From Paenibacillus azoreducens (GTDB lineage Bacteria; Bacillota; Bacilli; Paenibacillales; Paenibacillaceae): DNA of 64,000 nt. The notes under the pieces were generated by a model. The model had not been told where the DNA came from. It ran no database searches and saw only the letters and a list, made by a program, of their open reading frames with translations. Numbering within the stretch: position 1 is the first letter of the stretch; every line of letters begins with the position of its first letter. A program made the translations under genes and the position numbers. The stretch lies in assembly GCF_021654775.1 (NCBI RefSeq), contig NZ_AP025343.1:3377501-3441500 (forward strand), read 5' to 3'. Positions 49,885 to 64,000 of the stretch are shown here, piece by piece.

Positions 49885-50889
49885 TCACCCTAAAAGAAAT
49901 CCTTCTCCGAGCGGATCAGCAGGATCCACAATAAATTGGTGTGTGCCCGTGATGAAAGCTCTTCCTTTAATTTCGGGAATAACGGCTTCCTTATCGGCCA
50001 CATACGTCTTCTCTAGGATTCGTCCGGTGAATTGGCTATTCACGATGCTTTCATGGACAAAATCATCGCCGATGTCGAGATCCCCACGGGCATACAATGC
50101 CGCCATTCGTGCGCAGGTACCCGTTCCGCAGGGGGACCGGTCGATTTGTGCATCCGCAAAAATCGTCACATTACGCAAATGCGAACCATCCTTACGTGGC
50201 GAATCGGAGACGATGACGCCGTAAATACCCTGCAGTTCCGGTTCCAATGGATGCCTTACTGTAAGCGTGCTTTCAATGTATGCTTTAATCACAGAGCCCC
50301 AATATTGAAGGTTCGGAAGTTCGGCAATATCGACCGATGTCCCAATGTCTTCCGCTTTGACAATCGCATAGAAGGCGCCTCCAAAGGCAATATCAACCGT
50401 AAAGGATTTGCCCGCAATTATAATTGGATAATTCTGAGCGAACACGAAAGAAGGAACGTTTTGGAACGATACCGACTTCACTTCCGTTCCTTCGCGATCT
50501 GCATGCGCAATCACTTTGCCGGCAGGGCTGTCGATGACAATTTGAGAGCGTTCTGCGGTTTCCGGGAGAAGCCCCAATTCGAGAGCTGCCGTCACAACGG
50601 CAATAATGCCATGGCCGCACATCGTGCTGAAGCCTTCGTTATGCATGAACAAGACGCCAAAATCGGCGTCATGACTCACCGGCGGAGTAACGACGCAACC
50701 ATACATTCCATGATGTCCTCTCGGTTCATACATGAGCACTTTGCGAATGTAATCGTAATGTTCCCGGAAATACGCTCTTCTGGCAAGAATAGTATCGCCT
50801 TTTAATGGTGGAATGCCTCCCGTAATAATGCGCAGTGGTTCTCCGCCAGTATGCGCGTCAATCGTTGTATAGTACTGTTTCAGTTCCAT
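49885..50889 (-). CDS. proline racemase/4-hydroxyproline epimerase family protein, copy 2
   Basis: 334 residues. Cofactor-independent racemase fold with both catalytic cysteines: C91 in MCGHG and the second in DRSPCGTGT near residue 253. Enzymes that only dehydrate trans-3-hydroxyproline lack the first cysteine, so this one should be a racemase or 2-epimerase. It probably turns trans-4-hydroxy-L-proline into cis-4-hydroxy-D-proline, or L- into D-proline. Third gene of a minus-strand operon after a DadA-like dehydrogenase and a paralogue. GGAGGTC precedes the ATG. Confidence 0.85.
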
Positions 50890-50913
50890 TTTCGATGACC
50901 TCCTATGATTTGA

Positions 50914-51939
50914 TTACCCATGGTCTTCCGCTGGCGGAATTAATAAAAATCCTTCCGGATGTTCGTCGTCCTCATGCACAAAAAATGTGTGCATTCCCAT
51001 CAGCCAGGCGGAGCCTTCAATCTTCGTCGTCACTGCAGGAAAAGGGCCGACTTGCGTTGTGCTCACGATACGAGCCCGGAAGAGCGAGCCGACGATGCTT
51101 TCATGAACGAACTCTTCATTGATGCCTATTTCCCCGTTCGCAAACAAAACGGCAAGTTTCGCTGAAGTTCCCGTACCGCAGGGAGATCTATCAATGCCGC
51201 CAGGCGGGACAATGACGGTATTTTTTACGTCCGCTTCCGGGTGCGACGGGTCTGAATAAAATTCAACATGCGTTACTCCTTTCATGTACTGCGCTTCGGG
51301 ATGCATGACCTCGATCGATTGATTGATTGCTTTGCGTATGCTCACCGCTTTGGCCACGATATCGTCCGCATTGGATGGAACCAACTCGATGCCCAATTTT
51401 CTGGCATCCGTTATCGCATAAAAATTGCCACCGTAGGCGATATCGCAATCAACGCCCCCTACTCCTTCCACTTCCACATTCAGTCGTTTGTATAAAAAAG
51501 CAGGGACATTCTGAAAAGCCACTTTCAGCACTTTTCCATCCTGCACCGAAAGTTCCGCTTCTACCAGTCCGGCTGGGGTGTCGAGTTTCACATACGTTAT
51601 TGGTTCAGTAACGGTAATCATGCCGGTTTCAACCATCGCCGTGCATACACCAATGGTGTCGTGTCCGCACATCGGCAAATAGCCGCCAGTTTCGATATAG
51701 ATGACCCCTATATCCGCATCCGGCCGACAAGGCTCCACGAGTACTGCGCCCGACATTACGCCGTGTCCTCTTGGCTCGTACATCAATATTTTTCGAATCC
51801 AATCGTGTTCGGTTTTCATATGAAGCATTTTTTCCGACATCGTTGCTCCAGACAGCTTGGGAATGCCGCTGATAATGGTTCTTGTCGGATTTCCTCCGGT
51901 ATGCGAATCTACGGTCATAAACACTTTCCTGCTTTTCAT
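50914..51939 (-). CDS. proline racemase/4-hydroxyproline epimerase family protein, copy 1
   Basis: 341 residues, paralogue of the next gene in the operon. The cysteine pair is present (C91 in MCGHD and the second in DRSPCGTGT). The residue after the first motif is D-T-I-G instead of G-I-I-A, which probably changes substrate choice between the two copies. The start overlaps the dehydrogenase stop by four bases (ATGA), so translation is coupled. Together the copies may cover proline and hydroxyproline, or two hydroxyproline isomers. Confidence 0.85.
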   Translation of the reverse strand: MKSRKVFMTVDSHTGGNPTRTIISGIPKLSGATMSEKMLHMKTEHDWIRKILMYEPRGHGVMSGAVLVEPCRPDADIGVIYIETGGYLPMCGHDTIGVCTAMVETGMITVTEPITYVKLDTPAGLVEAELSVQDGKVLKVAFQNVPAFLYKRLNVEVEGVGGVDCDIAYGGNFYAITDARKLGIELVPSNADDIVAKAVSIRKAINQSIEVMHPEAQYMKGVTHVEFYSDPSHPEADVKNTVIVPPGGIDRSPCGTGTSAKLAVLFANGEIGINEEFVHESIVGSLFRARIVSTTQVGPFPAVTTKIEGSAWLMGMHTFFVHEDDEHPEGFLLIPPAEDHG

Positions 51940-53126
51940 GCGTGATTCACCTTCTTCCGAAATCTCTCGAATCTTAATGGCTCGGTTGGAATAACCGTAT
52001 TCGACTGTTCCGTTAAAATTTGGGTCATCAATTTGCCCGTTACCGCAGCTAAACTGATGCCGTCTCCTTCATGACCTGCAGCAATATAAAATCCGGGAAC
52101 CTCATCGACTGCCGACACGATCGGTAAATGATCCTGCGTCCATGGCCTGAGCCCTGTATAGGTACGGATGATCTGGAAATCGCCGATTTTTGGATAAAAG
52201 CGGAGCGCTCTTCTCGCCATCGTACGAATCGCTTCCATATTGACCGTCGTGTCAAAACCGACAAACTCCCTGCTGCTGCCGATCAGGAAATTTTGGCTCT
52301 CCGTGGGCTCAAATACGAGAGCTACGCCGTATTTCTCCGTTAATGGATCGACTTTACGCTCACCACCGAACTTGGAGATCAAATAGCCAAACTCCATCAC
52401 TTTGCGCATACCGACGGGTACTTGGCGGGAAGCTACAATCAAATGTCCTTTACGCGGCACGATCGGGATATCTATGCCAACCATTTGTCCGATAACTGGA
52501 GCCCATACCCCCGCTGCGTTCACGATTTTTCGGGCCGAAAAATCACCCTGCGTTGTGCAAATCTTGAATTCTGCCGTCAATGGATTTCTCAAGATCGACT
52601 TAACCTCGGTATTTAAACAGACACGAACCCCATATTTCTTTTGCGCATCGTCAAATAGGGCAAAGGTAAGCAGGTACGGGTTAACGGTGGAGTCCGTTCC
52701 ACACTCTAATCCTCCAGGAAGGTCGTCCGCAAGGTACGGCGATTCCTGCCGTATATCCCCACGATCCAGCATCCGGAATGAAAGCCCCAGCGCCTTCTGC
52801 CTGTTTACCCATAACTTAGCCGCCTCCATTTCCTCATCCGATTCACAGACGAGGATGCTGCCGGGCAATCTGTACTCGAACGGACTGCTGAGCTCCCGGC
52901 TTAGTTCATCGATAATGCGTTGGCTGGTAAGCGACATTTGGCTGTCAAATCCAGGGTCTTTGTCAATAGCGAGTATATTGCCGTCGCATCGCGATGAGGT
53001 TCCGCTGGCGAGTTCTCCTTTTTCAAGCACAATGACGTTCACCCCCTCCCTGCCCAAAAAGTATGCAATAGCTGCACCGATAATCCCGCCACCTATGATG
53101 ACGACCTCGGTATGGTTCACACCCAT
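51936..53126 (-). CDS. FAD-dependent D-amino-acid/D-hydroxyproline dehydrogenase (DadA-like)
   Basis: 396 residues. The N-terminal FAD-binding motif VVIIGGGIIGAAIAYFLGREG is at about residues 7-27, followed by VLEKGELASGTSSRCDGNI. The DAO-type end reads RTYTGLRPWTQDHLPIVSAVDEVPGFYIAAGHEGDGISLA. The ATG at 53126 has GGAAAGGAA upstream. A longer frame from 53195 would start upstream of the sigma-54 promoter at 53177-53192, so it is rejected. First gene of the operon with the two racemases. In hydroxyproline breakdown, such enzymes oxidise cis-4-hydroxy-D-proline to the pyrroline. The deaminase and semialdehyde dehydrogenase that complete the path are not in the window. Confidence 0.85.
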   Translation of the reverse strand: MGVNHTEVVIIGGGIIGAAIAYFLGREGVNVIVLEKGELASGTSSRCDGNILAIDKDPGFDSQMSLTSQRIIDELSRELSSPFEYRLPGSILVCESDEEMEAAKLWVNRQKALGLSFRMLDRGDIRQESPYLADDLPGGLECGTDSTVNPYLLTFALFDDAQKKYGVRVCLNTEVKSILRNPLTAEFKICTTQGDFSARKIVNAAGVWAPVIGQMVGIDIPIVPRKGHLIVASRQVPVGMRKVMEFGYLISKFGGERKVDPLTEKYGVALVFEPTESQNFLIGSSREFVGFDTTVNMEAIRTMARRALRFYPKIGDFQIIRTYTGLRPWTQDHLPIVSAVDEVPGFYIAAGHEGDGISLAAVTGKLMTQILTEQSNTVIPTEPLRFERFRKKVNHA

Positions 53127-53176
53127 AACCACGTTCCTTTCCAGTAGAATCATCAACTTCAAACTCATGTTCAAGT

Positions 53177-53192
53177 AGCAAGTTTTATGCCA
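53177..53192 (-). promoter_or_regulatory. sigma-54 promoter of the dehydrogenase-racemase operon
   Basis: On the minus strand TGGCATAAAACTTGCT matches the -24/-12 consensus TGGCAC-N5-TTGCW with the GG and GC dinucleotides correctly spaced. Expected transcription starts about 40 bp before the ATG at 53126. Confidence 0.82.
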
Positions 53193-53234
53193 CACCAGAA
53201 TGATCCGGTCTGATGTTTAAAGGAAGATCGCAAA

Positions 53235-53263
53235 TTTACAAGTTATAGGGCGGCGTGTATAAT
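53235..53263 (+). promoter_or_regulatory. sigma-A promoter of the sigma-54 activator gene
   Basis: TTTACA (53235-53240), 17-bp spacer, TATAAT (53258-53263), about 40 bp before the start. TTAAC and GTTAA (53264-53279) form a small inverted repeat over the start region that could allow autoregulation. Confidence 0.7.
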
Positions 53264-53303
53264 TTAACCAACATGTTAACCCATATAAAGCGAGGTAAGC
53301 CCA

Positions 53304-55052
53304 ATGAAGCACAAAGCTCCTGCCGTCACCGAACTTATCCGAACCAATTATTGTTTCATTGAAAATAATGACGATACCAGTCAGCATTTGGAGCGATATT
53401 TACCTTCCTTGCAATCGGACCGAGATATGATTCTATTTTTTAGGGATGGAAATCAGCTTTATGTTGATCCAGAAAGTGATGGGTCGAACGGAATGGACCT
53501 CGATCGCATCCCTTGGCAAACTGCAAGATCGGTCAGCAAAGAAGCGACGATGAATGACATCATTCCGCTCTTTCAAGAAAGCGATTACATCATGGTGACC
53601 GAATTGACAGGCCATCCTGTCGGTTATGTTACCGCCGCGGACGCACTTGCCGCTTGTTATCAGTCACACCAATACTTGGAAGCTTATTTTGAAGCCATGA
53701 TCGAAACGATGGATGCCTCGGTTTCCATGATCGATGATCAGGAAAATACAGTCGTATGGACACCAGGAGCCGAACGAATTTTTTCAATTAAGGCGAAGGA
53801 TATCTTAGGGAAACCGATGCCTGAATTTTTCCCCGTCGATATGCTGCAAATCTTAAAGACGCACAAGACCGGAGAAGGCGTCTTCCAAAAACTGCACCAG
53901 CCGCGGCCAGACATATATGTTCTGATCAACTCGAATCCGATTCGGCTCAATGGGAAAATTATCGGTTCCGTCGTTGCGGAAACCGACATCACCAGCGAGG
54001 TCAGATTGAATCAAGAATTGTTTAACGCAACATCCAAGGTTCATCAGCTCCAGCAGCAAATGGCTCACTTGAATCCCTCATCCGATCCGTTCAGCCAGAT
54101 CAAAGGAACAAGCAAAGCTATCAAGCGCACAGTCGATATGTGCAGAAAAATCGGATCGACCAAGGCTACCGTGCTTATTCTCGGTGAAAGCGGAGTTGGC
54201 AAAGAGCTTTTTGCCAAGGCTATTCATGATATTCGGGAGAAACCTGACGCTCCTTTCATAGCCATCAATTGCGGTGCTATTCCGCCATCCCTGTTTGAAA
54301 GCGAGCTTTTCGGTTATGAAAAGGGAGCATTCTCCGGGGCTGATCTTAATGGCAAAAAGGGAAAAATCCAGCTGGCCGCAGGCGGTACCTTATTCTTGGA
54401 CGAAATCGGTGAAATGCCTCTGGAGATGCAAGTCAAGCTTCTGCGTGTGCTTCAAGAGAAAAAGTTTTATGCGGTAGGCGGAACCAAGCAATTAAATGCC
54501 GACTTCCGGGTTATTGCCGCTACCAACCGCGATTTGGAAGAGCAGGTCAAAAAAGGAGACTTCCGCGAAGACTTGTATTATCGGTTGAATGTGGTTACAT
54601 TAGTTGTCCCCCCGCTTCGGGAAAGAAGAGAGGACATAATCGAACTGACTCATTGTTTCCTTAACGAGTTTGCCTTAAGCTATAACCGATTGATCCAAGA
54701 CATTCCGCAGGAAGTTCTCCTGGATTTGCTCCATTATCATTGGCCGGGCAATATCCGCGAGTTACGGAATACGATTGAGCGATTAGTCGTGTTTTCATCT
54801 GATGGCACGATAGAAAGGGATTATTTACCGTTATCGATCTTATCGAACAGAAACGGCAAGGATCTGCCGCAGGTTGTACCAACTACAGGAGCGTTTCAAA
54901 CGTTGCAAGAGGAGCTCGAAGCGCATGAAAAGCAAATCATCCTGTATGCACTGAAAATGGAAAACGGAAACAAGCTGGCTGCCGCCAAACGGCTTGGCCT
55001 ATCGCGGGCAACGCTGTACAACAAAATGAACAAGTTCGGTATATTCGATTAA
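53304..55052 (+). CDS. sigma-54-dependent enhancer-binding regulator with CBS-like and PAS sensor domains
   Basis: 582 residues, the activator proposed for this locus. An N-terminal region to about 120 has CBS-like character (PVGYVTAADALAA). A PAS domain covers about 125-235 (MDASVSMIDDQENTVVWTPGAERIF) and is probably the ligand sensor. The AAA+ domain has Walker A GESGVGKE near 295, the sigma-54 contact loop as GAFSGA near 342 (S replaces T of GAFTGA), Walker B GGTLFLDEIGE near 360 and the arginine-finger region RVIAATNRDLEEQVKKGDFREDLYYRLNV. The Fis-type helix-turn-helix is at the end (NKLAAAKRLGLSRATLYNKMNKFGI). It sits between the two divergent catabolic groups. Confidence 0.92.
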   Translation: MKHKAPAVTELIRTNYCFIENNDDTSQHLERYLPSLQSDRDMILFFRDGNQLYVDPESDGSNGMDLDRIPWQTARSVSKEATMNDIIPLFQESDYIMVTELTGHPVGYVTAADALAACYQSHQYLEAYFEAMIETMDASVSMIDDQENTVVWTPGAERIFSIKAKDILGKPMPEFFPVDMLQILKTHKTGEGVFQKLHQPRPDIYVLINSNPIRLNGKIIGSVVAETDITSEVRLNQELFNATSKVHQLQQQMAHLNPSSDPFSQIKGTSKAIKRTVDMCRKIGSTKATVLILGESGVGKELFAKAIHDIREKPDAPFIAINCGAIPPSLFESELFGYEKGAFSGADLNGKKGKIQLAAGGTLFLDEIGEMPLEMQVKLLRVLQEKKFYAVGGTKQLNADFRVIAATNRDLEEQVKKGDFREDLYYRLNVVTLVVPPLRERREDIIELTHCFLNEFALSYNRLIQDIPQEVLLDLLHYHWPGNIRELRNTIERLVVFSSDGTIERDYLPLSILSNRNGKDLPQVVPTTGAFQTLQEELEAHEKQIILYALKMENGNKLAAAKRLGLSRATLYNKMNKFGIFD

Positions 55053-55071
55053 GGTTCAAACTAACAAGTCC

Positions 55072-56070
55072 TTATGTCATGGGGATCTGCATGCCAACGC
55101 CAGCAGACAACGCCCGATCATAGATCGCTTTGGCAACGACGACATCCATAGCAGCCAGTCCTACTGATTTGAACACCGTTGTTTCGTCATGCCGCTCGCG
55201 GCCAGGCTTCAATCCGCAGACGATCTCCCCTAATTCTGCGTAAATAGAGGCCGGATCAAAGAGGCCCTGCTTTTCGGGGATAATGAAGTCGCCCGACTCC
55301 TCTAATGCCATTTCCCTGGATTCAACGACGATTTTGTCGGCATGGGCGATCAGATGAGTCGGCAGTTCTTGCATATCCGGACGGAAGGAACCGACCGCAT
55401 TCACATGGACGCCCGATGGGACCGCTTCTTTGCTGAAAACAGGATGTATGGAGTTCGTAGCGGTGACGATAATATCGGCTTCCCTTATGGCCTGGTCTGC
55501 ATCACTGGCAACCGTTATCTCCAGCATCCTTTGCTCCGCTTCGGCGGATTCCATCAGTTCGTGCGCCAATTCATAGGCTTTGTGCGCATGCCGATTATAC
55601 AATCGTATTTCCTCGATGGGACGTACTTCTCTTATTGCTTGAATGATTCCTCTGGATTGCGCCCCGGTTCCAATGACGCTTAGCACTTTCGCATTTTCCT
55701 TCGCCATGAGTTTGCTGGCCAGCCCTGATGCGGCACCAGTCCGGATTACCGTCAAATAAGACGCCTCCAGGATGGCTAGCGGCTCCCCCGTTTCTGTGTC
55801 TGCAAGTACCATCAAACCGTAAATCGTCTTTTTTCCCATGGCTGTATTGTTCGGAAACACCGAAACGAACTTCACGCCCAAACTGTTTGCCGCTTCAACA
55901 AATGACGGCATAAATAACGAAGTTCCCTCCGATTTTTTCAAATAGAGTGCTGTACGGATGGGAGTGATAGCGCGCTGCCCTGAATACTCGGACAAAGCAA
56001 CGCTGACCGCGTCAATGACTTCCCCCATTTTGATTACTTTGCGTTGATCATGCGAAGATAAAAATAGCAT
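55072..56070 (-). CDS. ornithine cyclodeaminase/mu-crystallin family reductase, likely pyrroline-2-carboxylate reductase
   Basis: 332 residues. The NAD(P)-binding motif is VIGTGAQSRGIIQAI near residue 132, preceded by RTGAASGLASKLMA. VNAVGSFRPDMQELP and KSVGLAAMDVVVAK are family landmarks. Some members cyclise ornithine; others reduce pyrroline-2-carboxylate to L-proline in hydroxyproline and D-proline breakdown (LhpI type). The context favours the latter. The ATG at 56070 has GGAAGGAG six bases upstream; another ATG at 56076 lies too near that site. A sigma-54-like promoter lies 58 bp upstream. Confidence 0.82.
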   Translation of the reverse strand: MLFLSSHDQRKVIKMGEVIDAVSVALSEYSGQRAITPIRTALYLKKSEGTSLFMPSFVEAANSLGVKFVSVFPNNTAMGKKTIYGLMVLADTETGEPLAILEASYLTVIRTGAASGLASKLMAKENAKVLSVIGTGAQSRGIIQAIREVRPIEEIRLYNRHAHKAYELAHELMESAEAEQRMLEITVASDADQAIREADIIVTATNSIHPVFSKEAVPSGVHVNAVGSFRPDMQELPTHLIAHADKIVVESREMALEESGDFIIPEKQGLFDPASIYAELGEIVCGLKPGRERHDETTVFKSVGLAAMDVVVAKAIYDRALSAGVGMQIPMT

Positions 56071-56127
56071 GGACATCTCCTTCCTCTCTGTTTATGAGTA
56101 GAGGGCTTTCCCCCTTTCCTTTCCTAA

Positions 56128-56143
56128 TGCAAAGAACATTCCA
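56128..56143 (-). promoter_or_regulatory. sigma-54-type promoter of the ornithine-cyclodeaminase-family gene
   Basis: On the minus strand TGGAATGTTCTTTGCA has correct GG-to-GC spacing and a full TTGCA -12 element; the -24 element has A in place of the C of TGGC. It is strikingly similar to the site at 62491-62506. Confidence 0.65.
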
Positions 56144-56164
56144 ACTCGTTTCGCGCTAATAAAC

Positions 56165-56221
56165 GACATATCATGTCTAATTCTCTATACAAAACACGGC
56201 TGTCATTTCAAATTTTAGACA
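56165..56221. promoter_or_regulatory. candidate enhancer (UAS) between two divergent sigma-54 promoters
   Basis: TGTCTAA (56174-56180) and TTAGACA (56215-56221) form a 7-bp inverted repeat, and GACATATCATGTC (56165-56177) is a palindrome. They lie midway between the promoters at 56128 and 56263, where a sigma-54 activator would bind. A further TTAGACA is at 62576. Assignment is inferred. Confidence 0.45.
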
Positions 56222-56262
56222 CTGACATTCACAAATAATATTGTTTTGCGTTGGCATAAAGC

Positions 56263-56278
56263 TGGCATTTTTTTTGCA
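56263..56278 (+). promoter_or_regulatory. sigma-54 promoter of the Xaa-Pro peptidase/oligopeptide-binding operon
   Basis: TGGCATTTTTTTTGCA: a perfect TGGCA -24 element and TTGCA -12 element at exact spacing, with the T-rich spacer typical of strong sigma-54 promoters. The GTG start is 50 bp downstream. Confidence 0.85.
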
Positions 56279-56327
56279 AGGAAAATAAATGTAGAAATCA
56301 ATTTGAAACAGATTGGGAGGAATTGAT

Positions 56328-57395
56328 GTGCAAACTAGGATTGAAAAGCTTAGGGAGGTTATGGAAACCCTCGAGCTGGACGGCATGCTGATCGAGAGCG
56401 CAAGCAACCGCCGTTATATCACCGGATTTACCGGTACCGCAGGCACTGTGCTGATCTCTAAAAATCAAGCGAAGCTGATCACTGATTTTCGTTACGTCGA
56501 GCAGGCCGGTGCTCAAGAAGCCGGATTTGAAATCGTTCGGGGGTCTAAAGCTTCGATGATCCAGCAAATTGCCGATGAAGCATCGAAGATGAACATGACC
56601 AAGTTGGGCTTCGAAAAAGAACATCTCACTTTTGGTACTTATCAGAAATTTCAAAATGAGATCGCTGCCGAGTTGGTCCCTGTTGCCGGAGTCTTAGAAA
56701 ACCTGCGTATGGTTAAATCCGAAACTGAAATCGGCTTGCTGCGCACTGCCGCGCAAATCGCTGACACTTCTTTCGCCGAAATTCTTGAATATATCCGTCC
56801 CGGACTTACCGAAAAAGAAATAGCCAATACCTTGGAATCAACTTTGCGCAAGCATGGGGCTGACAGCTCCGCATTCAATTTAATCGTCGTTTCCGGCCAC
56901 CGCTCCGCCCTTCCCCACGGCTTGGCCAGTGAGAAAATCATTGAAAACGGCGATATGCTTACGCTTGACTTCGGCGCATATTACAAAGGCTACCGCTCCG
57001 ATATAACGAGAACGATCGCCATCGGTGAGCCCGATGCACAATTGCAAGATATTTATCAGATTGTGCTGGAAGCAGAGATGAAGTGTATCGCCCTACTGAA
57101 ACCGGGGACATTATGCAGCGAAATAGACATCTTTACGCATCATTACATCGAATCGCTAGGATATGGCGATTACTTTGGTCACGGCACGGGTCATGGAATC
57201 GGATTGGATATTCACGAAGAACCATTCTTTTCGACAACTTCAGAAAAAATTCTGGCTCCAGGTATGGTCGTAACAGTCGAACCCGGGATTTACATCCCTA
57301 ACCTCGGAGGCGTCAGAATCGAGGACGATGTATTGATCACCGACTCGGGACATGAAATAATCACAACCGCTTCAAGAGAGCTTATTGTTTTGTAG
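56328..57395 (+). CDS. Xaa-Pro peptidase, M24 family
   Basis: 355 residues. The GTG at 56328 has GGGAGG seven bases upstream. An N-terminal creatinase-like domain (about 1-125) precedes the pita-bread catalytic domain. The metal ligands are all visible: D in LDFGAYY near residue 214 and D in YRSDITRT near 225, H in GHGTGHGIG, E in TVEPGIY and E in VRIEDD. Such enzymes split the Xaa-Pro bond that ordinary peptidases leave, so it suits proline-rich collagen peptides. First gene under the sigma-54 promoter at 56263, followed by the oligopeptide-binding lipoprotein. Confidence 0.92.
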   Translation: MQTRIEKLREVMETLELDGMLIESASNRRYITGFTGTAGTVLISKNQAKLITDFRYVEQAGAQEAGFEIVRGSKASMIQQIADEASKMNMTKLGFEKEHLTFGTYQKFQNEIAAELVPVAGVLENLRMVKSETEIGLLRTAAQIADTSFAEILEYIRPGLTEKEIANTLESTLRKHGADSSAFNLIVVSGHRSALPHGLASEKIIENGDMLTLDFGAYYKGYRSDITRTIAIGEPDAQLQDIYQIVLEAEMKCIALLKPGTLCSEIDIFTHHYIESLGYGDYFGHGTGHGIGLDIHEEPFFSTTSEKILAPGMVVTVEPGIYIPNLGGVRIEDDVLITDSGHEIITTASRELIVL

Positions 57396-57471
57396 ACAAA
57401 AATTGAAACCGCTGTCATCTTCACGGTCAGGCCCAATATTCATTCACAATGATGAGAAGGGTGATCGATTC

Positions 57472-59139
57472 ATGAAAATAAAAAAATCATTATTGCTGGC
57501 TTTAAGCCTTGCAATCTTAATGACAACAGCGTGTACCTACAAGTCTGCTCCAACGACGGAGTCAAAAACAAATCCGCCAGTGAAAGCAACGGAAGATGCC
57601 CAAAAGGAGGAACAGACCCTTAATCTGGCGGCGGGACAAGAAATTACGACGCTCAACAGCCTCGGACTCATCGACAATCCTACGATCGCGATTCAGAACA
57701 ACTTGTTTGAAGGCCTTTATCGGCTGGATAAGACAAGCAAGCCGACTCCAGGTATGGCCGAATCTTACGAAGTAAGTGAAGACGGGAAAGTGTATACCTT
57801 TCATCTGCGCGATGCCAAGTGGAGTAACGGAACACCGGTTACGGCCAAAGATTTTGATTATGCCTGGAGAAAAGCCCTCGATCCGGCAAATTTATCCCCC
57901 TATGCCTCCTTCTTTGACGATATCGTCAACGGCTTGGATATCCATAACAAAAAGAAGGGAATCGAAGAGCTTGGCGTAAAAGCCATTGACGATCATACGT
58001 TTCAAGTCGCGCTTTCCAAGAACGTCCCCTATTTTCTGGATTTGATAACAGCTCCTGTTTTCTTGCCGCAAAACAAAGAGTATGTGGAGGGCCAAGGAAA
58101 AGACTACGGACAGGAAGCGGATAAAGCGATTTATAACGGACCGTTCGTGCTGGATTCCTGGAAGCACGAAGAAGGCTACGTTCTCAAGAAAAACCCCGAC
58201 TATTGGGATGCGCAGACGGTGAAATTGGAAACGATCAATTTTAAAATCGTCAAAGACAACAGCACTAGAATGAACCTTTATGAAGCCGGCCAACTGGATA
58301 TGACCGGCTTAACATCCGAATATACCGAGCAGTACAAAGGGTCTCCCGAATACGTTGCCTATCCTGATCCTGGCATGCGCTTCTTGCGGATGAGCCAAAA
58401 AAATAAATATTTGAAAAACATCAATATACGCAAAGCATTGACGATGGGGTGGAACCGACAGGATATGACCGACGTCATCCTGAACAACGGCTCCACTCCG
58501 GCCAACTATCTTGTTCCGAAGAGTTTTGTTATGGGACCGGACGGCAAGGACTTCAGGGCCAAGCATGAAGAGGGTTTCAACACAGGCGGAATGGATGAAG
58601 CGAAGAAATATTGGGAGCAGGGTCTTAAAGAACTTGGCGAAACCAGCATCAAACTTGAATTGTTGAACTATGAAGGCGATGTATCCAAGACCATCGGCCA
58701 ATACCTGAAAAATCAATGGGAGAAAAACCTTCCCGGTCTTACCGTTACGATCAACCAGCAGCCGCAAAAACAAAAACTCGCACTGGAAAAAAAGGCAGAT
58801 TATGATGTAAGCTCTTCCGGCTGGGGACCGGATTACCCGGATCCAATGACATTCCTGGAGAACTTTACGTCAAACTCGCCCTACAACGAATCGGAGTACA
58901 AAAGCGCCAAATACGATCAACTTATTGATGATGTAAGAAATGCAACGGATCCTGCCGCACGCTGGACAACGATGCAAGAAGCAGAGCGCGTTCTCCTTGA
59001 AGAAGATGCGGCAATCATCCCGATGTATCAAGAAGCAATCGCCCGCTTGTCCAAATCTTATGTGAAAGATTATGTGACGCATCCCTTTGGCGTGTACTCC
59101 AGCTATAAATGGACCTATATCGAAGGCAAAAAGAAATAA
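57472..59139 (+). CDS. oligopeptide ABC transporter substrate-binding lipoprotein (OppA/DppE-like)
   Basis: 555 residues. The ATG at 57472 has AGAAGGGTGATC upstream; a longer frame overlaps the previous gene and lacks a signal. The signal peptide ends at MTTAC with lipidated C21. The family-5 signature YTFHLRDAKWSNGTPVTAKDFDYAWRKALDP is near residue 100 and YNGPFVLDSWKHEEGYVLKKNPDYWD near 225. It probably captures collagen-derived peptides for an Opp-type importer, of which only the OppF-type ATPase is seen in the window (62984). 76 bp after the Xaa-Pro peptidase, in the same operon. Confidence 0.9.
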   Translation: MKIKKSLLLALSLAILMTTACTYKSAPTTESKTNPPVKATEDAQKEEQTLNLAAGQEITTLNSLGLIDNPTIAIQNNLFEGLYRLDKTSKPTPGMAESYEVSEDGKVYTFHLRDAKWSNGTPVTAKDFDYAWRKALDPANLSPYASFFDDIVNGLDIHNKKKGIEELGVKAIDDHTFQVALSKNVPYFLDLITAPVFLPQNKEYVEGQGKDYGQEADKAIYNGPFVLDSWKHEEGYVLKKNPDYWDAQTVKLETINFKIVKDNSTRMNLYEAGQLDMTGLTSEYTEQYKGSPEYVAYPDPGMRFLRMSQKNKYLKNINIRKALTMGWNRQDMTDVILNNGSTPANYLVPKSFVMGPDGKDFRAKHEEGFNTGGMDEAKKYWEQGLKELGETSIKLELLNYEGDVSKTIGQYLKNQWEKNLPGLTVTINQQPQKQKLALEKKADYDVSSSGWGPDYPDPMTFLENFTSNSPYNESEYKSAKYDQLIDDVRNATDPAARWTTMQEAERVLLEEDAAIIPMYQEAIARLSKSYVKDYVTHPFGVYSSYKWTYIEGKKK

Positions 59140-59155
59140 TAATACGCCGACAAAA

Positions 59156-59207
59156 AACAGCCATTTCCCTAAACTGAAATCAATTGGGGAAATGGCTGTT
59201 TTTCTTT
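59156..59207. terminator. bidirectional terminator between convergent genes
   Basis: AACAGCCATTTCCC (59156-59169) pairs perfectly with GGGAAATGGCTGTT (59187-59200). T-runs follow on both strands, so it ends both the peptide-binding gene and the collagenase gene. Confidence 0.9.
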
Positions 59208-59218
59208 TATGGGACTAT

Positions 59219-62200
59219 TCAGTTGTTTTGCGTTTCAATTGGACTCGCTTCGTCAACGGATACCTTAATATTATATGCTCCGACATTGCTTGGCGTATTT
59301 GAATTCTTGTATACAAGCAGATAATATTTACCTGCAGGTGCATCGAATGTGTTCTCCTGAAGATTTCCATTCCTCCGCGAATCTTGCCAGTAGTTTTGAA
59401 GATCGCTCTCTTTATACAAAACCCAGGTTAAATCCATGCCGTTCGGTTGGGTGACAACGAGGTGGACCTTTCCGGCGTTCTCCAACTCGAAGTAAAAATA
59501 GCTTGCCGTATCGGATTGGTCCATCGTCGCAGGAAAATTGAAGTCAAATGGCAGCGGACCGTTTGCCAATTCAATTCTGTTGTTGGGCTTTATTTCCTTG
59601 TCAAGCTGACGAATCACAGCCGTCGTTGTTTGCTCTTCCGTTACTCCATTGCTGTCCGTTACTTTCAAGCTAATGTTGTAGGTACCAGTTTTTTTATAAA
59701 CATGAGTGGGATTAGGCAGCGAGCTTGTTGTGCCATCGCCGAAATTCCATTCATAATTGGTGATCGTCCCGTTTTGCGAGAATGTTCCTTCACTATTAAA
59801 TTGCAAAGCGTATCCGGCAGTTCCCTCATAGGGTCCATGGATATCAACCACTGGCGGGAGTGTGGGATTACTTGAGTCATCCGGCGATACACCATGAAAT
59901 ACGACATCAAAAACAAAATGATTATTTTGATCCAATCGGTGGTTTACGAAGTATCCCGTGATGGTTTTATAGCCGCTCCATGGCAAATGATCAAGCGCTT
60001 TTAATGAATTGTCAACGATTTCATTCATGGCTTTTCGATCTTCAATGATCCCCTTGCTTATCCCTCCGGTATAAGTTCCCCGGACCACGTAAGTATTAAG
60101 CAGTTCCGAAGAATGCTCTTCCGTCCGGATGTCGGTTAAGTTGATGGCCTGATTGATATCATTCAAAACGGTTGAACGCGGTCGAACAGGATGGCGTAGT
60201 AAATAGTCCTCTGCGACAAGCGGTATCGTTAATTGCCCCGCATCTGCCCTTTGGCGCAAATCTATAGCCGAGTCGATATAATTCTTATTTAGCTGTTCAT
60301 CTTGCCCCAAAACGTTCATGTATGCATCATAACCCGTTCCGTCATTGCTGCGGACCAAGTTTGCAATGTTTTCTAATACATCCGGCCGCTTTTCATAAAG
60401 ATAATATTGAAGCTGATAAGCAAAAGTATAGAATCGAAATCCATTGTATTTCGCGTGGACGACTTCATTCGCATTCATCCATGAAGTGACTGGATCATAT
60501 AAATACCCCTGGGACATGGACCTGCGAGGCAAAATACCGTTTTCCCTTGTTGAACCTGCTAGCAGTTCCGCACCTCCTTCTTCCACCCATGTAACTCGGT
60601 CATTCCGATAAATTTCGCTTTCTCCCCAAAAACCCGGAATGAGGTAACGGCCTTGCAGGAAATGGGTAAATTCATGCCGAAACAGTTCCTCCAAAGTGTA
60701 AACGCTTTCGGAAGGGGTTCTTTCCCACGTATAAAAAGTGCCCTGGGATTCAATATAAATTCCGCCATTTTGAGTTTCAAGACCGTTCAAGAGTAGATTG
60801 ATCTTATATTCTTCTTTGTTGTTGTAAATATAGATGCTGAGAATATCATCAGGATGGCCTTGCTCTAATGGAACATCTCTGCCGGTTATTCGGTAAAACT
60901 GCGCTCTAACTTCTTTTGACGCCCAATACAGGCGCTCTATTTTGTCGTCCGTTACGTCTTTTCCAGTGTACATGATCATTTGGCCGTCATCGAAGGTATA
61001 GCGTTTTGGAAAATAAAAATGTTTTGCTTCGTTCACAAGCTGGTCATAGTGAATCGCGATTCCTTTTGAATTCATACCGTTAAAAATTTGATTGATGGAG
61101 CTTGCCGCTTGCATATAAGCGTAGCTGTACTGGGGGAAAATCTCCATATCTCGCGTCAAGATTTCATTCACTGAGGAAGGGTTACTGCTGAATTTACTGA
61201 ACAGTCCGGAGTAATAAATAGTGTTATAGAGAAACCATTGGTGGTTTGGCGAGTAATTTGTGTGAAGGGAGAGTTTGCCGATTGCTTCAATAAAGGGGTC
61301 AAATGTACCGATATAATCCGGTTGCTTTGGAACATTTTGTTCGTCCAAAACATTGTTTAGAATAAAATTTATTCCTTTTAAAAGTTCATATACAGCGGAG
61401 AATTCTCCTCCGTTTGCATGATTGTAAGCATCAAATTTTTGCTCCGCCTGCAATAAAATTTTCGTGGCTCCATTGATCACTTCCGCATTGACAGCGGTAT
61501 TCCCAATCATTCTGCCAAATGCAGCAATGACGTTATTTTGCTCTGCCGTACCGATTTCGAAATTAGGGTTATCCTCAATGGCGATTAAAGCTGGGATGAT
61601 CTTCTTCCGATATTCCCACTCATTGATGTAACCCAAGGTATCCCGATTGTAGTAACCAAGATAATAAGCGGATCGGAGCACTTCCACGAGTGTATCGATT
61701 CCTTTGCTGTCGTCTTTCGTATAATCTCTTCCGGCATTTGCCAAAGCGGCGATAAGCGCCTCCATCCGGTTTCTGTCGCCATAAAATTCCGCAGTATCGT
61801 TATTATACGCGAATAATTCGGGAATATGGGTCCATCGCAGCTTTGGAAGAAGGGCAGTTAAGTCCGCGTAGCTCATTTTATTTAATTCCGCCATTGTATA
61901 ATTTCTTATCTCGACGGCCTTTAGCTGACTTTGGTTCCCTTGCACGTCTGTATCACGAAACGGCGCGCTTTGGCTTTGATGCGGCGATTGTACTTGTGGC
62001 GGAGCTCCTTCAGGAACAATGCCTGCAGGGTCCTTTGGAGAGCGGTCTCCTCCGAGGTCGCAAAGAGGCTCATCCGTTCCCTTGGGCTCCGTCAATTTAC
62101 CGGGAGGATTTAAACCCTTTGGCGCATGCATTTCTGCCTCCTGACCTCTATTCTGACTTGGTGCCTTACTTGCAGCCTTGCTTTCTGTCCGGTCTGCATT

Positions 62201-62338
62201 CAGACTTACTGTCTGCAGCATCCGGGACGATACATCTGGTGATTGTGCCAGAATTGTCGTTCCCAAACCATTCATTGCCAAAGCTGTAATCAAGCTAGTA
62301 ACAATGCAGATTCCAATTTTACGACCCATTAAGCCCAT
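59219..62338 (-). CDS. secreted M9-type collagenase
   Basis: 1039 residues from the ATG at 62338 (GGAAG upstream; a TTG seven codons earlier sits before that site). A signal peptide ends near LAQS (about residue 33), followed by a disordered Pro/Gln/Ser-rich propeptide to about 140. The activator domain starts at YTMAELNKMSYADLTALLPKL, a helical HEAT-like region of bacterial collagenases. The zinc site is H555-E556-x-x-H559 (HEFTH) and E587 in WVEEGGAE, with the same 28-residue spacing as clostridial ColG. A PKD domain follows near 830-910 (WNFGDGTTSSLPNPTHVYKKTGTY) and a PPC-type domain near 920-1035. It would cut native or denatured collagen outside the cell. Confidence 0.92.
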   Translation of the reverse strand: MGLMGRKIGICIVTSLITALAMNGLGTTILAQSPDVSSRMLQTVSLNADRTESKAASKAPSQNRGQEAEMHAPKGLNPPGKLTEPKGTDEPLCDLGGDRSPKDPAGIVPEGAPPQVQSPHQSQSAPFRDTDVQGNQSQLKAVEIRNYTMAELNKMSYADLTALLPKLRWTHIPELFAYNNDTAEFYGDRNRMEALIAALANAGRDYTKDDSKGIDTLVEVLRSAYYLGYYNRDTLGYINEWEYRKKIIPALIAIEDNPNFEIGTAEQNNVIAAFGRMIGNTAVNAEVINGATKILLQAEQKFDAYNHANGGEFSAVYELLKGINFILNNVLDEQNVPKQPDYIGTFDPFIEAIGKLSLHTNYSPNHQWFLYNTIYYSGLFSKFSSNPSSVNEILTRDMEIFPQYSYAYMQAASSINQIFNGMNSKGIAIHYDQLVNEAKHFYFPKRYTFDDGQMIMYTGKDVTDDKIERLYWASKEVRAQFYRITGRDVPLEQGHPDDILSIYIYNNKEEYKINLLLNGLETQNGGIYIESQGTFYTWERTPSESVYTLEELFRHEFTHFLQGRYLIPGFWGESEIYRNDRVTWVEEGGAELLAGSTRENGILPRRSMSQGYLYDPVTSWMNANEVVHAKYNGFRFYTFAYQLQYYLYEKRPDVLENIANLVRSNDGTGYDAYMNVLGQDEQLNKNYIDSAIDLRQRADAGQLTIPLVAEDYLLRHPVRPRSTVLNDINQAINLTDIRTEEHSSELLNTYVVRGTYTGGISKGIIEDRKAMNEIVDNSLKALDHLPWSGYKTITGYFVNHRLDQNNHFVFDVVFHGVSPDDSSNPTLPPVVDIHGPYEGTAGYALQFNSEGTFSQNGTITNYEWNFGDGTTSSLPNPTHVYKKTGTYNISLKVTDSNGVTEEQTTTAVIRQLDKEIKPNNRIELANGPLPFDFNFPATMDQSDTASYFYFELENAGKVHLVVTQPNGMDLTWVLYKESDLQNYWQDSRRNGNLQENTFDAPAGKYYLLVYKNSNTPSNVGAYNIKVSVDEASPIETQNN

Positions 62339-62671
62339 ACTGCACACACTTCCTTTCAAAATTGGTAGCAGATCATCTCCAAACGTCTTACAGTCGGATC
62401 CTGATCGTTTGAGCGAACCAAAAGCGTTAGCTCACCTTAAATTTACATGACGGTTTTCCCTCCTCTTTTTACCGGATACCTTCCCCAACATGCAAAATGC
62501 ATTCCAACCTTTACACCGGATTAGCGGCTAAAATGTGTCCATTTTTTGAACAGATCGCAACATGCATCCAACAATTTAGACAGTTCAATGACGCCGAAGG
62601 ATCAAAATAATTGGAAAAAAACAACAGCCATTCCTTCGCATGCAGCGCAGATAAATGGCCGTGAAATGAAT
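62339..62671. other. upstream region of the collagenase gene
   Basis: Holds a sigma-54-like promoter at 62491-62506 and, further upstream, TTAGACA at 62576-62582 and the small inverted repeat AAAATG-TGTC-CATTTT at 62532-62547. The leader is about 140 bases. No gene is seen. Confidence 0.55.
62491..62506 (-). promoter_or_regulatory. sigma-54-type promoter of the collagenase gene
   Basis: On the minus strand TGGAATGCATTTTGCA, with correct spacing of GG and GC. It shares TTGGAATG and TTTGCAT with the site at 56128-56143. The collagenase start lies about 150 bp downstream, so a long leader is expected. Confidence 0.62.
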
Positions 62672-62971
62672 TCAATGCATCAAGATGGAACACACATACG
62701 TGAAGATAAACAAAATTCCTCCCGACAGCAATAAAGGATAAGTCAACCTGAACTTGCCCCATTCCTTCCATCGTTTTTCTTCTCGGTGAAAGCGGGACGC
62801 ATACTCTCCCTGTTTGGTCGAGTGTTGGAAAAACCGCCTGCAGCTGTGCAAAAACCCGTTGAACAACCCGCCTTGCAGCACCAACATGCCGGCCCCCGCC
62901 ATCAGCAGCAGCAAAGAGATAATCGATAAAAGATTGACAAGTTCCATGAACAAAGAATCTTTTGCTTCCAT
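62672..62971 (-). CDS. DUF3899 family membrane protein
   Basis: 99 residues with two membrane helices (about 12-33 and 78-97) and a basic loop (CRRFFQHSTKQGEYASRFHREEKRWKEWGK) between. The pattern LLLMAGAGMLVLQGGLFNGFLHSCRRFF matches DUF3899, a Bacillales family whose genes often accompany oligopeptide transporter genes. It begins 12 bp after the OppF-type gene with GAGGAGGGAGG upstream, so it belongs to that operon. Function unknown. Confidence 0.75.
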   Translation of the reverse strand: MEAKDSLFMELVNLLSIISLLLLMAGAGMLVLQGGLFNGFLHSCRRFFQHSTKQGEYASRFHREEKRWKEWGKFRLTYPLLLSGGILFIFTYVCSILMH

Positions 62972-62983
62972 TGCCTCCCTCCT

Positions 62984-64000
62984 CTAAGTTCGAGCCTGAT
63001 GCTGCCGCAGCGCAGGCTCTACACCTTCATCCGTACAAGCAACCCAATGCCCCCGCTCCACTTCCCGGAAGACGCGGCTGGCATCATTTTTTGCGTACAT
63101 AGCATGATCAAATACGATTCGTTTGCGTTTACGTTCCACGACAGGATCGGGAACGGGGATAGCCGAAAGTAAAGATCGCGTATAGGGATGCAGCGGATTT
63201 TCATACAGCTCGGCACTGTCTGCCAATTCCACAATGCGTCCCCGATACATGACGGCTATCCTGTCGCTAATATGCTTCACCATGGACAAGTCGTGTGCGA
63301 TGAACAAATACGTGAGCCCTTTTTCCTTCTGTAAATGCTTGAGCAGGTTCACGACCTGAGCCTGCACGGATACATCCAGCGCGGAGATGGGCTCGTCAGC
63401 GATGATGAATTCCGGACTCACGGCCAATGCGCGGGCGATGCCGATCCGCTGACGCTGACCACCGCTGAACTCGTGAGGATACCTGTTCGCATGATCGCGG
63501 TTCAACCCCACCGCCTCCAGCAACTGATACACAAATTCCCGCCGCTGCCCGGCATCTTTGGCAAACCTGTGGATATCCACCCCTTCGGCAATGATATCCG
63601 CTACAGTCATCCGCGGATTTAATGTTGAGTAAGGATCCTGGAAAATCATCTGCATACGGCGGCTCATTTGCTGGCGTTTTTCCAGAGAATTCAGCCCGGA
63701 TATGTTTTCGCCTCCATACAGAACTTTGCCTGACGTGGCTGTGTACAAACCGATGAGGGTTCTTCCGGTCGTTGATTTGCCGCAGCCGGATTCCCCCACA
63801 AGCCCAAGTGTCTCGCCTTTGTAGATATCAAAAGTAAGACCGTCGACGGCTTTATGAATTTGACCTTTGCCTAGTGGAAAGTATTTTTTCAGATTCTCCA
63901 CGGCCACCAATTTCTCCCGGGCAGCCTGCAACGTTTTCGCTTTGTCAGGATCATGAAGATGCAGCTCCCGTTGGCTTGGGGATACATACGGACGGCTAAT
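62984..64000 (-). CDS. oligopeptide ABC transporter ATP-binding protein (OppF/DppF-like), start off the right edge
   Basis: ATPase subunit of a peptide importer. Walker A is GESGCGKST, the Q-loop is MIFQDPYSTLNPRM, the signature FSGGQRQR, Walker B FIIADEPISALDVS and the H-loop IAHDLSMVKHISD. The C-terminal oligopeptide-transport extension (NPLHPYTRSLLSAIPVPDP) is complete, ending HWVACTDEGVEPALRQHQ. The frame stays open to position 64000 with good-looking sequence (SRPYVSPSQRELHLHDPDK). No start codon with a ribosome binding site exists inside, so the true start lies outside. The permeases and OppD-type ATPase are presumably upstream of it. Last but one gene of its operon. Confidence 0.9.
   Translation of the reverse strand: MSRPYVSPSQRELHLHDPDKAKTLQAAREKLVAVENLKKYFPLGKGQIHKAVDGLTFDIYKGETLGLVGESGCGKSTTGRTLIGLYTATSGKVLYGGENISGLNSLEKRQQMSRRMQMIFQDPYSTLNPRMTVADIIAEGVDIHRFAKDAGQRREFVYQLLEAVGLNRDHANRYPHEFSGGQRQRIGIARALAVSPEFIIADEPISALDVSVQAQVVNLLKHLQKEKGLTYLFIAHDLSMVKHISDRIAVMYRGRIVELADSAELYENPLHPYTRSLLSAIPVPDPVVERKRKRIVFDHAMYAKNDASRVFREVERGHWVACTDEGVEPALRQHQART

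Follow-up and report, generated by a model that had tools for sequence, protein, structure and literature searches.

A probable sigma-54 regulon for collagen and hydroxyproline utilisation with its own linked rpoN in Paenibacillus azoreducens

Introduction

Does one sigma-54 regulon lead from extracellular collagen to intracellular hydroxyproline and proline in Paenibacillus azoreducens? The question is raised by a 64-kb stretch of its 7.3-Mb single-contig genome (G000:C1:3377501-3441500, hereafter the window), in which genes of a secreted collagenase, peptide import, a peptidase and proline racemase-family proteins surround the gene of a sigma-54 activator, EBP_A. A first-pass annotation of the window had proposed one regulon from collagen to proline and hydroxyproline. 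This remains the best reading and gains further candidate hydroxyproline enzymes, permeases and an rpoN gene beyond the window edge; the core itself is not new. The locus is probably a self-contained, substrate-inducible sigma-54 regulon for collagen and hydroxyproline. Its core pathway is already known, and what is added here is a variant packaging. The genes, the promoter-like sites with their conservation, the linkage of rpoN and an enhancer motif common to the family can be read directly from the sequence.

Promoter-like sites of the locus

The window was scanned with position weights based on the published -24/-12 consensus, strong sites being those of at least 14 bits and the listing cut being 12 bits. 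Seven strong sites were found, whereas 10 first-order simulations gave on average 1.2 per 64 kb. Four of them lie within positions 49885-64000 and three elsewhere in the window; the four promoters named in the first-pass annotation are among these seven best sites of the independent scan. A lone site of 14.7 bits lies outside the locus at 32097-32112. Sites P5, P6 and P7 lie in L009, the stretch next to the window (window coordinate = L009 + 63500).

The sites were aligned between this genome and those of three relatives, G003, G061 and P. mangrovi (G035), the last of which has no genes at P4 and P5; P5 is aligned in 3/3 species. This conservation is weaker than it appears, because the gene products of the aligned species are mostly more than 90% identical. 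Wider counts were made in other named loci, with the three close orthologues excluded and the 14-bit threshold kept. A -24/-12 site precedes the oxidase gene in 57 of 65 loci (1/65 on the reverse strand) and the Fer2_BFD gene in 51/62 (4/62 on the reverse strand). The regulator gene has such a site in only 1 of 77 loci, and the EBP_A gene itself has none. For M24 peptidase genes the counts are 8/18 and 6/16, with 1/18 and 6/16 on the reverse strand; only the first set is informative, because forward and reverse counts are equal in the second.

These counts bear on the explanation that only the core hydroxyproline genes are under sigma-54 control, the collagenase and Opp genes being an inserted block on ordinary promoters and P4 and P5 being chance matches. 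The P. mangrovi cluster lacks the collagenase-Opp block, and P4 is among the weaker sites and is degraded in G061, where a last-base change takes it below 12 bits. Against this, P5 reaches 18.4 bits and has the same sequence in three species, an aligned P4 is present in three, and the M24 genes of other loci carry such sites in the proportion given above (8/18). An inserted block is considered unlikely.

The strict pattern TGGCAC-N5-TTGCW had no match in the window, the cluster having TGGCAT and TGGAAT instead. A whole-genome search for TGGCAC-N5-TTGC with one mismatch was discarded as uninformative (415 matches versus 384 for the reversed pattern).

The activator and candidate enhancers

EBP_A has the features of a sigma-54 enhancer-binding activator, namely an AAA+ domain with a GAFTGA-type loop and a C-terminal Fis-type helix-turn-helix (HTH); the GAFSGA variant of the loop is counted as functional (PMC6615313). 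Its top NCBIfam match is PrdR (NF041552) with 516.9 bits, and an assignment to PrdR proper was rejected since the curated cut-off of 795 is not reached. By its oxidase and racemase-family neighbours with -24/-12 promoters, EBP_A fits the Bacillales SoxR/hydroxyproline activator group.

In 61 intergenic regions between oxidase and regulator genes, the inverted repeat TGT-N12-ACA occurs 79 times, compared with 5.8 +/- 2.9 in 30 first-order resamplings, and is present in 53 of the 61 (own locus included). No other spacing between 4 and 19 exceeds the 24 occurrences of N14. A family motif trained on 78 sites, with the orthologues of the window left out, placed its two best matches of the whole 82.5-kb own contig between P2 and P3 (56174) and between P1 and the regulator (53256) (Table 1). 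Four more matches of at least 8 bits were found at 55015, 49174, L009:4836 and 20796, the simulated expectation being 1.0 per 82.5 kb; the first lies inside the end of the regulator gene and L009:4836 lies between P5 and P7.

A second motif was derived from the proline locus of the same genome (module B, see below) and its relatives, whose enhancers resemble TGTCTAAAATTTTAGACA and lie just beyond the regulator stop codon. At least one site of at least 9 bits lies within 70 bases of the stop in 5 of 6 such loci, and 4 of 6 have a pair 31 bases apart. In P. azoreducens, paired enhancer-like sites stand at L010:10576 and 10607, past the stop of the proline-module activator and 3 kb from the promoters, and such pairs are also present in several relatives. 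The candidate sites at 56174 and 56204 have half-sites similar to those of module B. The module-B motif gave 8 matches of at least 10 bits where 1.9 would be expected, and just three of the eight lie at promoters.

Table 1. Features of the collagen/hydroxyproline locus and of the paralogous proline module; plain numbers are window positions
Feature	Position	Strand	Remarks
Proline racemase superfamily protein 1 (Cys/Cys type)	49885..50889	-	PF05544 375.5 bits
Proline racemase superfamily protein 2	50914..51939	-	PF05544 404.3 bits; MCGHD, RSPCGTG
DAO-family FAD oxidoreductase	51936..53126	-	PF01266 233.3 bits; start re-placed downstream of P1
P1, oxidase-racemase operon promoter	53177..53192	-	TGGCATAAAACTTGCT; 17.1 bits; aligned in 4/4 species
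Candidate enhancer (TGT-N12-ACA), between P1 and regulator	53256..53273	.	TGTATAATTTAACCAACA; 11.1 bits, rank 2 among family-motif matches of the 82.5 kb
Sigma-54 activator EBP_A	53304..55052	+	PF00158 233.1 bits; PAS, AAA+, HTH_8 (Fis-type HTH); loop GAFSGA
Ornithine cyclodeaminase/mu-crystallin (OCD) family reductase	55072..56076	-	PF02423 251.8 bits; NF006379 418.4, cut-off 417
P2, OCD-family gene promoter	56128..56143	-	TGGAATGTTCTTTGCA; 14.6 bits; aligned in 4/4 species
Candidate enhancer, between P2 and P3	56174..56191	.	TGTCTAATTCTCTATACA; 12.3 bits, rank 1 among family-motif matches of the 82.5 kb; aligned in 4/4 species
Second candidate enhancer, 30 bp from 56174 site	56204..56221	.	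half-site TTTTAGACA; module-B motif 11.6 bits; conserved block
P3, promoter of prolidase 1 and oppA	56263..56278	+	TGGCATTTTTTTTGCA; 18.3 bits, window's best; identical in 4/4 species
M24 Xaa-Pro peptidase 1 (prolidase 1)	56313..57395	+	PF00557 245.1 bits, PF01321 107.5 bits
Oligopeptide-binding lipoprotein OppA (SBP_bac_5)	57472..59139	+	PF00496 302.3 bits; lipobox-like LMTTAC
Secreted M9 collagenase, ColH/ColG type	59219..62359	-	PF01752, PF08453, PF18496, PKD, PPC
P4, collagenase promoter	62491..62506	-	TGGAATGCATTTTGCA; 14.6 bits; aligned in 3/3 species
Candidate enhancer half-site, upstream of P4	62565..62582	.	CATCCAACAATTTAGACA; module-B motif 10.6 bits; conserved in 3 species
OppD-OppF fusion ATPase (664 aa), C-terminal part	62984..64000	-	remainder in L009
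P5, before prolidase 2, oppB, oppC, oppDF	L009:4782	-	18.4 bits; identical in three species
P7, before Fer2_BFD	L009:4936	+	13.1 bits; aligned in 4/4 species
Fer2_BFD	L009:5003-5275		divergent from prolidase 2/opp genes
Fer2_4	L009:5272-5604		after Fer2_BFD
HcnB-like FAD protein	L009:5607-6809		after Fer2_4
rpoN_A	L009:9573-10964		
P6, directly before rpoN_A	L009:10953	-	aligned in 4/4 species
Proline module: second activator, proline dehydrogenase, P5C dehydrogenase, second rpoN	L010:10637-17021		paralogous sigma-54 module

Gene content and predicted route

The nine genes named in the first-pass annotation are all present, their calls being upheld by Pfam and NCBIfam scans of the window proteins. 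Its locus limit at 64000 is superseded: the gene set spans about 25 kb and goes on into L009. The predicted OppF-type ATPase is indeed OppF-like; it is not a separate gene, being the C-terminal half of an OppD-OppF fusion that the window edge splits. Beyond the edge follow the remainder of this fusion, OppC, OppB and a second M24 peptidase (prolidase 2), and then divergent genes; genes of an aldehyde dehydrogenase, a DHDPS/DapA-family protein and rpoN_A stand almost contiguously on one strand. A reading frame that resembles an IS630-type transposase lies at L009:14557-15318, about 3.6 kb past rpoN_A. In the draft genome G061 (L073, L074), the activator, dapA, prolidase 2 and oppC genes look broken, by sequencing error or decay.

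Across its catalytic collagenase module and the PKD and PPC domains, the secreted collagenase closely resembles ColH and ColG. It matches the ColH structure 9lrk with an E value of 2.5e-231, the HEFTH and WVEEGGAE stretches being aligned, and has the M9_N and M9 domains, helper domains and HExxH motif of the M9B (ColG/ColH) type. The start of prolidase 1 is probably near 56328. That of the oxidase is probably near 53126, because the frame listed from 53195 overlaps its promoter.

Both racemase-family proteins have the Cys/Cys catalytic pair, which is common to proline racemases too, and neither reaches the NCBIfam cut-offs for the names 4-hydroxyproline 2-epimerase and proline racemase. The top NCBIfam match of protein 1 (motifs MCGHG and RSPCGTG) is trans-3-hydroxyproline dehydratase, with 387.9 bits against a cut-off of 540. 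This role was not accepted, as cysteine stands at both places and the Cys/Cys type comprises racemases and epimerases, not dehydratases (PMC4364671). Protein 2, the counterpart of which adjoins the oxidase in other Bacillales, is likely a 4-hydroxyproline 2-epimerase. By homology, the oxidase is likely a D-hydroxyproline dehydrogenase subunit of the SoxB/LhpB kind (names in part after PMC4941409). The Fer2_BFD, Fer2_4 and HcnB-like proteins are likely further subunits of this dehydrogenase, and the OCD-family protein is likely a pyrroline-2-carboxylate reductase. In L009, the aldehyde dehydrogenase has alpha-ketoglutaric semialdehyde dehydrogenase as its top NCBIfam match (591, cut-off 770) and the DHDPS/DapA-family protein has dapA (194, cut-off 206). 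With these L009 genes, there is a candidate gene for every step of the hydroxyproline route described in PMC4113996 and PMC4364671.

The predicted route that leads from collagen to alpha-ketoglutarate would thereby be complete. The secreted collagenase would cut collagen or gelatin, the OppABC(DF) importer would bring in peptides rich in proline and hydroxyproline, and the two M24 prolidases would release both amino acids. The Cys/Cys epimerase would convert trans-4-hydroxy-L-proline to its D-isomer, which the multi-subunit FAD/2Fe-2S dehydrogenase would oxidise, and the DapA-family deaminase and the semialdehyde dehydrogenase would complete the route. The OCD-family reductase may turn pyrroline-2-carboxylate into proline, to be burnt by the separate proline locus. 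EBP_A would sense an internal signal, bind enhancers related to TGT-N12-ACA and open the seven sigma-54 promoters. Its activation would raise its own sigma factor in a positive loop, because one of the seven promoters precedes rpoN_A. The enzyme activities, the inducer, sigma-54 dependence, the use of enhancers in this locus and the positive loop are what we infer.

Several observations weigh against this picture. The collagenase within the cluster is restricted to three close genomes. Both racemase-family proteins are of the Cys/Cys type, and the dehydratase expected as partner of the OCD-family reductase is missing among the candidates. P7 is off consensus (TGGCGA) and the weakest of the seven promoters, yet it is identical in three relatives. 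The enhancer matches of the cluster score 8.1-12.3 bits compared with a training median of 22.1, the motif scan of the contig gave no clear enhancer site at P6, and the best module-B match of the contig lies within dapA. A DNase footprint of B. thuringiensis SoxR, 29 bp long, consists of an 11-bp inverted repeat with a 7-bp spacer (PMC4941409); because this published footprint is without TGT-N12-ACA, the motif is unconfirmed by the nearest studied regulator, which slightly lowers confidence in the proposed regulon. The sox locus of that species was assayed with sarcosine, not hydroxyproline, and is required for growth on sarcosine. Finally, further sigma-54 targets are possible elsewhere in the genome: TGGMATNNNNNTTGCW has 41 genome matches against 11 for the reversed pattern, and only 10 are in the two loci, one of these inside rpoN_A. 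When 20 of the 31 matches outside both loci were inspected, 16 lay within frames that run for 150 codons or more from stop to stop, counted on either strand, and 4 outside; at least one of the 16 (L196) has a start codon 24 bases downstream. This site (G000:C1:6974823) precedes a 423-aa lipoprotein-like frame, which is a possible further sigma-54 target.

Distribution of the gene set

Of the regulator's relatives 526 were found, and the best 80, in named loci, were kept and compared with flanks of 10 kb. Oxidase and racemase-family genes are present in 64 of the 80, proline dehydrogenase in 6 and neither in 10. Among the 64, prolidase-family genes occur in 31, OCD relatives in 9, OppB relatives in 5 and M9 collagenase in 2, both of which belong to close kin of this genome. 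Of the co-conservation that the proposed regulon implied for the regulator neighbourhood, the racemase and oxidase part is borne out (64 of the best 80), the prolidase part holds partly (31/64) and the collagenase part fails (2/64).

In a sample of 100 genomes of the genus, this one included, a collagenase was found in five: within the cluster in three (G000, G003, G061) and without cluster genes around it in two (G019, G079). Racemase-family genes occur in eight, of which G020, G031, G046 and G067 have neither rpoN nor the activator. G020 and G031 (L077, L078) have a one-strand row of prolidase, oxidase, two racemase-family, DapA-family, aldehyde dehydrogenase and HcnB-like genes, and the second racemase-family protein of these rows has serine in place of the first catalytic cysteine.

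The same comparison bears on another explanation, that the cluster serves primarily sarcosine or other N-methyl amino acids, as the sox locus does, with the collagenase and peptidases as unrelated neighbours. The best solved-structure matches of the oxidase are indeed glycine and sarcosine oxidases. Sarcosine use is not known to require an epimerase, DapA-family deaminase or semialdehyde dehydrogenase. DapA-family genes occur in 58 of the 64 loci and semialdehyde dehydrogenase genes in 53, many only 32-37% identical to those of P. azoreducens and the latter count including best matches to 1-pyrroline-5-carboxylate (P5C) dehydrogenase; moreover, the collagenase and the transporter each have -24/-12 sites of their own. 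Mutants of B. thuringiensis in soxB and soxR lose growth on sarcosine and keep growth on proline (PMC4941409), which speaks for the sarcosine explanation; B. cereus ATCC 14579 grows on hydroxyproline, and trans-4-hydroxyproline induces its 4HypE-cluster genes (PMC4113996), which speaks against it. Taken together, a primary role in sarcosine use appears quite unlikely.

Two sigma-54 modules and the linked rpoN

Besides two rpoN genes, the genome encodes two activators that match PF00158 strongly (236 bits each); seven more PF00158 matches of 43.5 bits or less are above the Pfam cut-off. The product of rpoN_A has PF00309, PF04963 and PF04552 above cut-off, i.e., the AID, core-binding and DNA-binding domains, and the stretch SRRTVAKYRE, which we take to be the RpoN box. 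The second pair belongs to the proline module, which also has a lyase-family gene and three -24/-12 sites; the lyase-family gene stands beside it at L010:17111-18292 with its own site. Between the modules, the activators are 54.8% and the RpoN copies 43.9% identical, and the RpoN boxes differ by one residue. In the trees both pairs group as paralogues (RpoN support 92/88; activators SH-aLRT 94 in a quick tree), the activator group also taking in a Marinococcus row on a long branch and P. alkalitolerans. The simplest reading, though unproven, would be that regulator and sigma factor were duplicated together.

It is a serious possibility, if somewhat less than an even one, that the linked rpoN is not dedicated and both RpoN copies serve both loci interchangeably, which would be compatible with a collagen and hydroxyproline regulon. 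The two loci have similar promoters, and the 16-mer of P5 recurs unchanged at the proline locus in three relatives; their enhancer half-sites overlap, and the RpoN boxes are nearly the same. On the other side, the low identity of the two copies and a tree that follows the cassette argue for separate roles. Whether cis linkage and activator pairing can separate two sigma-54 copies with near-identical promoters is a testable question.

Sigma-54 cassettes in Paenibacillus and other Bacillales

At a match threshold of E <= 1e-30, rpoN was found in 32 of the 100 genus genomes, in 39 copies, one of them broken (G052), with two copies in 7 genomes. All 39 copies share their contig with an activator, at a distance of 1.5 to 19.6 kb. 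In a tree of 59 RpoN sequences, the Paenibacillus proteins cluster by cassette and not by genome. The five cassette types, which we assigned from spacing and neighbours, require 4 changes, the minimum, compared with a shuffled mean of 32.8; the C type is weakly supported as one group (42/77) and has different pathways inside, and the other-Bacillales type forms a taxonomic group as well. Both copies are in the tree for five genomes (G000, G003, G035, G002, G047), and they are of different types in four; G047 has two C-type copies that are not sisters. In G098 (L085, 6743-14918), rpoN lies between an acetoin-dehydrogenase-like operon and the activator. Other mapped cassettes contain a glutamine-synthetase-like/M20 set (L084), a CoA-transferase/HMGL set (L086) and an activator of LevR length with a sorbose-family phosphotransferase system (PTS) (L088).

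Within the 300 bases before rpoN, a site of 14 bits or more is present in 4 of 5 hydroxyproline-type Paenibacillus loci, 1 of 10 Lev-type loci and none of the 18 proline-type, 7 C-type and 19 other-Bacillales loci (two with fewer than 40 bases of upstream sequence). An rpoN with its own promoter was dropped as a general rule, being mostly confined to hydroxyproline-type loci.

Activator matches without rpoN were found in 21 genomes. Eight were fetched, and the loop, legible in seven (L171-L176, L178), is degenerate in all seven, with the forms SAFIGN, GAFEGQ, GVLEGQ, GAFAGQ and GAYSGN. It is GAFSGA or GSFTGA in 29 of 29 activators of L042-L070, one of which (L063) is from a 900-contig draft with no rpoN match. 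Because the GAFTGA loop is degenerate in rpoN-less genomes, their activator-like proteins may be sigma-54-independent descendants.

Of the 56 hydroxyproline clusters fetched from outside Paenibacillus, 19 contain rpoN, plus two weak matches, and the gene is single-copy in 7 of 8 tested genomes of this kind. Linkage is not general in Bacillales, because six tested genomes whose fetched cluster lacks rpoN hold one copy elsewhere.

Sigma-54 is usually presented as one factor shared by many activators, and the Paenibacillus pattern contrasts with this. We tentatively suggest, with somewhat less than even confidence, that sigma-54 is captive in this genus: each catabolic cassette (collagen/hydroxyproline, proline, sorbose/mannose-type PTS, acetoin-dehydrogenase-like operon and others) would have its own rpoN lineage and one activator and be gained or lost as a unit, and the hydroxyproline cassette would drive its own rpoN, making a bistable, all-or-none collagen switch.

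Comparison with known systems

The first-pass annotation knew of no described Bacillales system with precisely this gene set under sigma-54. The core, however, has been described in the same gene order as the sox locus of B. thuringiensis HD73 (PMC4941409, PMC4428206). There, too, the regulator lies between two divergent units with -24/-12 promoters at both; one unit comprises the oxidase, racemase-family, DHDPS-family and aldehyde dehydrogenase genes, and the other encodes two small proteins plus an FAD subunit. Sigma-54 and SoxR are required at two promoters, and the SoxR binding site serves a promoter 1.7 kb distant (PMC4941409). The ten genes described for the sox locus include no collagenase, Opp or rpoN gene, a carrier protein taking the place of Opp; the locus is assigned to sarcosine, and its footprint is unlike TGT-N12-ACA. 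The gene order suggests that this published 'sarcosine' locus may be a hydroxyproline locus. By the same token, it would be identical to the B. cereus 4HypE cluster; among the best 80 relatives there is no locus of the B. cereus group.

The hydroxyproline clusters of PMC4113996 share with the present one the epimerase, oxidase, DHDPS-family deaminase, semialdehyde dehydrogenase and OCD reductase, and their t3HypD members in Bacilli adjoin ABC transporters and peptidases. The word collagen is absent from the text of that paper, and its covered sections have nothing on sigma-54. Clostridiales PrdR (PMC6615313) is the nearest named regulator family and has a similar enhancer, TGT-N10-12-ACA, and proline-related targets; the P. 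azoreducens cluster differs in being without proline reductase genes. In open-licence literature, no paper was found on the combination seen here (collagenase with sigma-54, hydroxyproline, proline racemase or Paenibacillus), nor one on a pathway-bound rpoN in Paenibacillus.

The private sigma-54 packaging looks new, and the linked rpoN, its promoter and the cassette sorting deserve experiment. In Clostridiales, sigL is single-copy in each of 57 sigL-bearing genomes (PMC6615313). The Firmicutes sigma-54 gene is described beside yhbJ and glycolysis genes, and several rpoN genes are reported for four proteobacteria 'and a few others' (PMC3162934). A likeness is offered by Cereibacter sphaeroides, which has four RpoN copies, those studied each being paired with its own activator and specialised by activator and target set (PMC11999139). 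That organism is an alphaproteobacterium whose targets include flagellar and nif genes, whereas Paenibacillus is Gram-positive and has its rpoN genes near or inside catabolic clusters.

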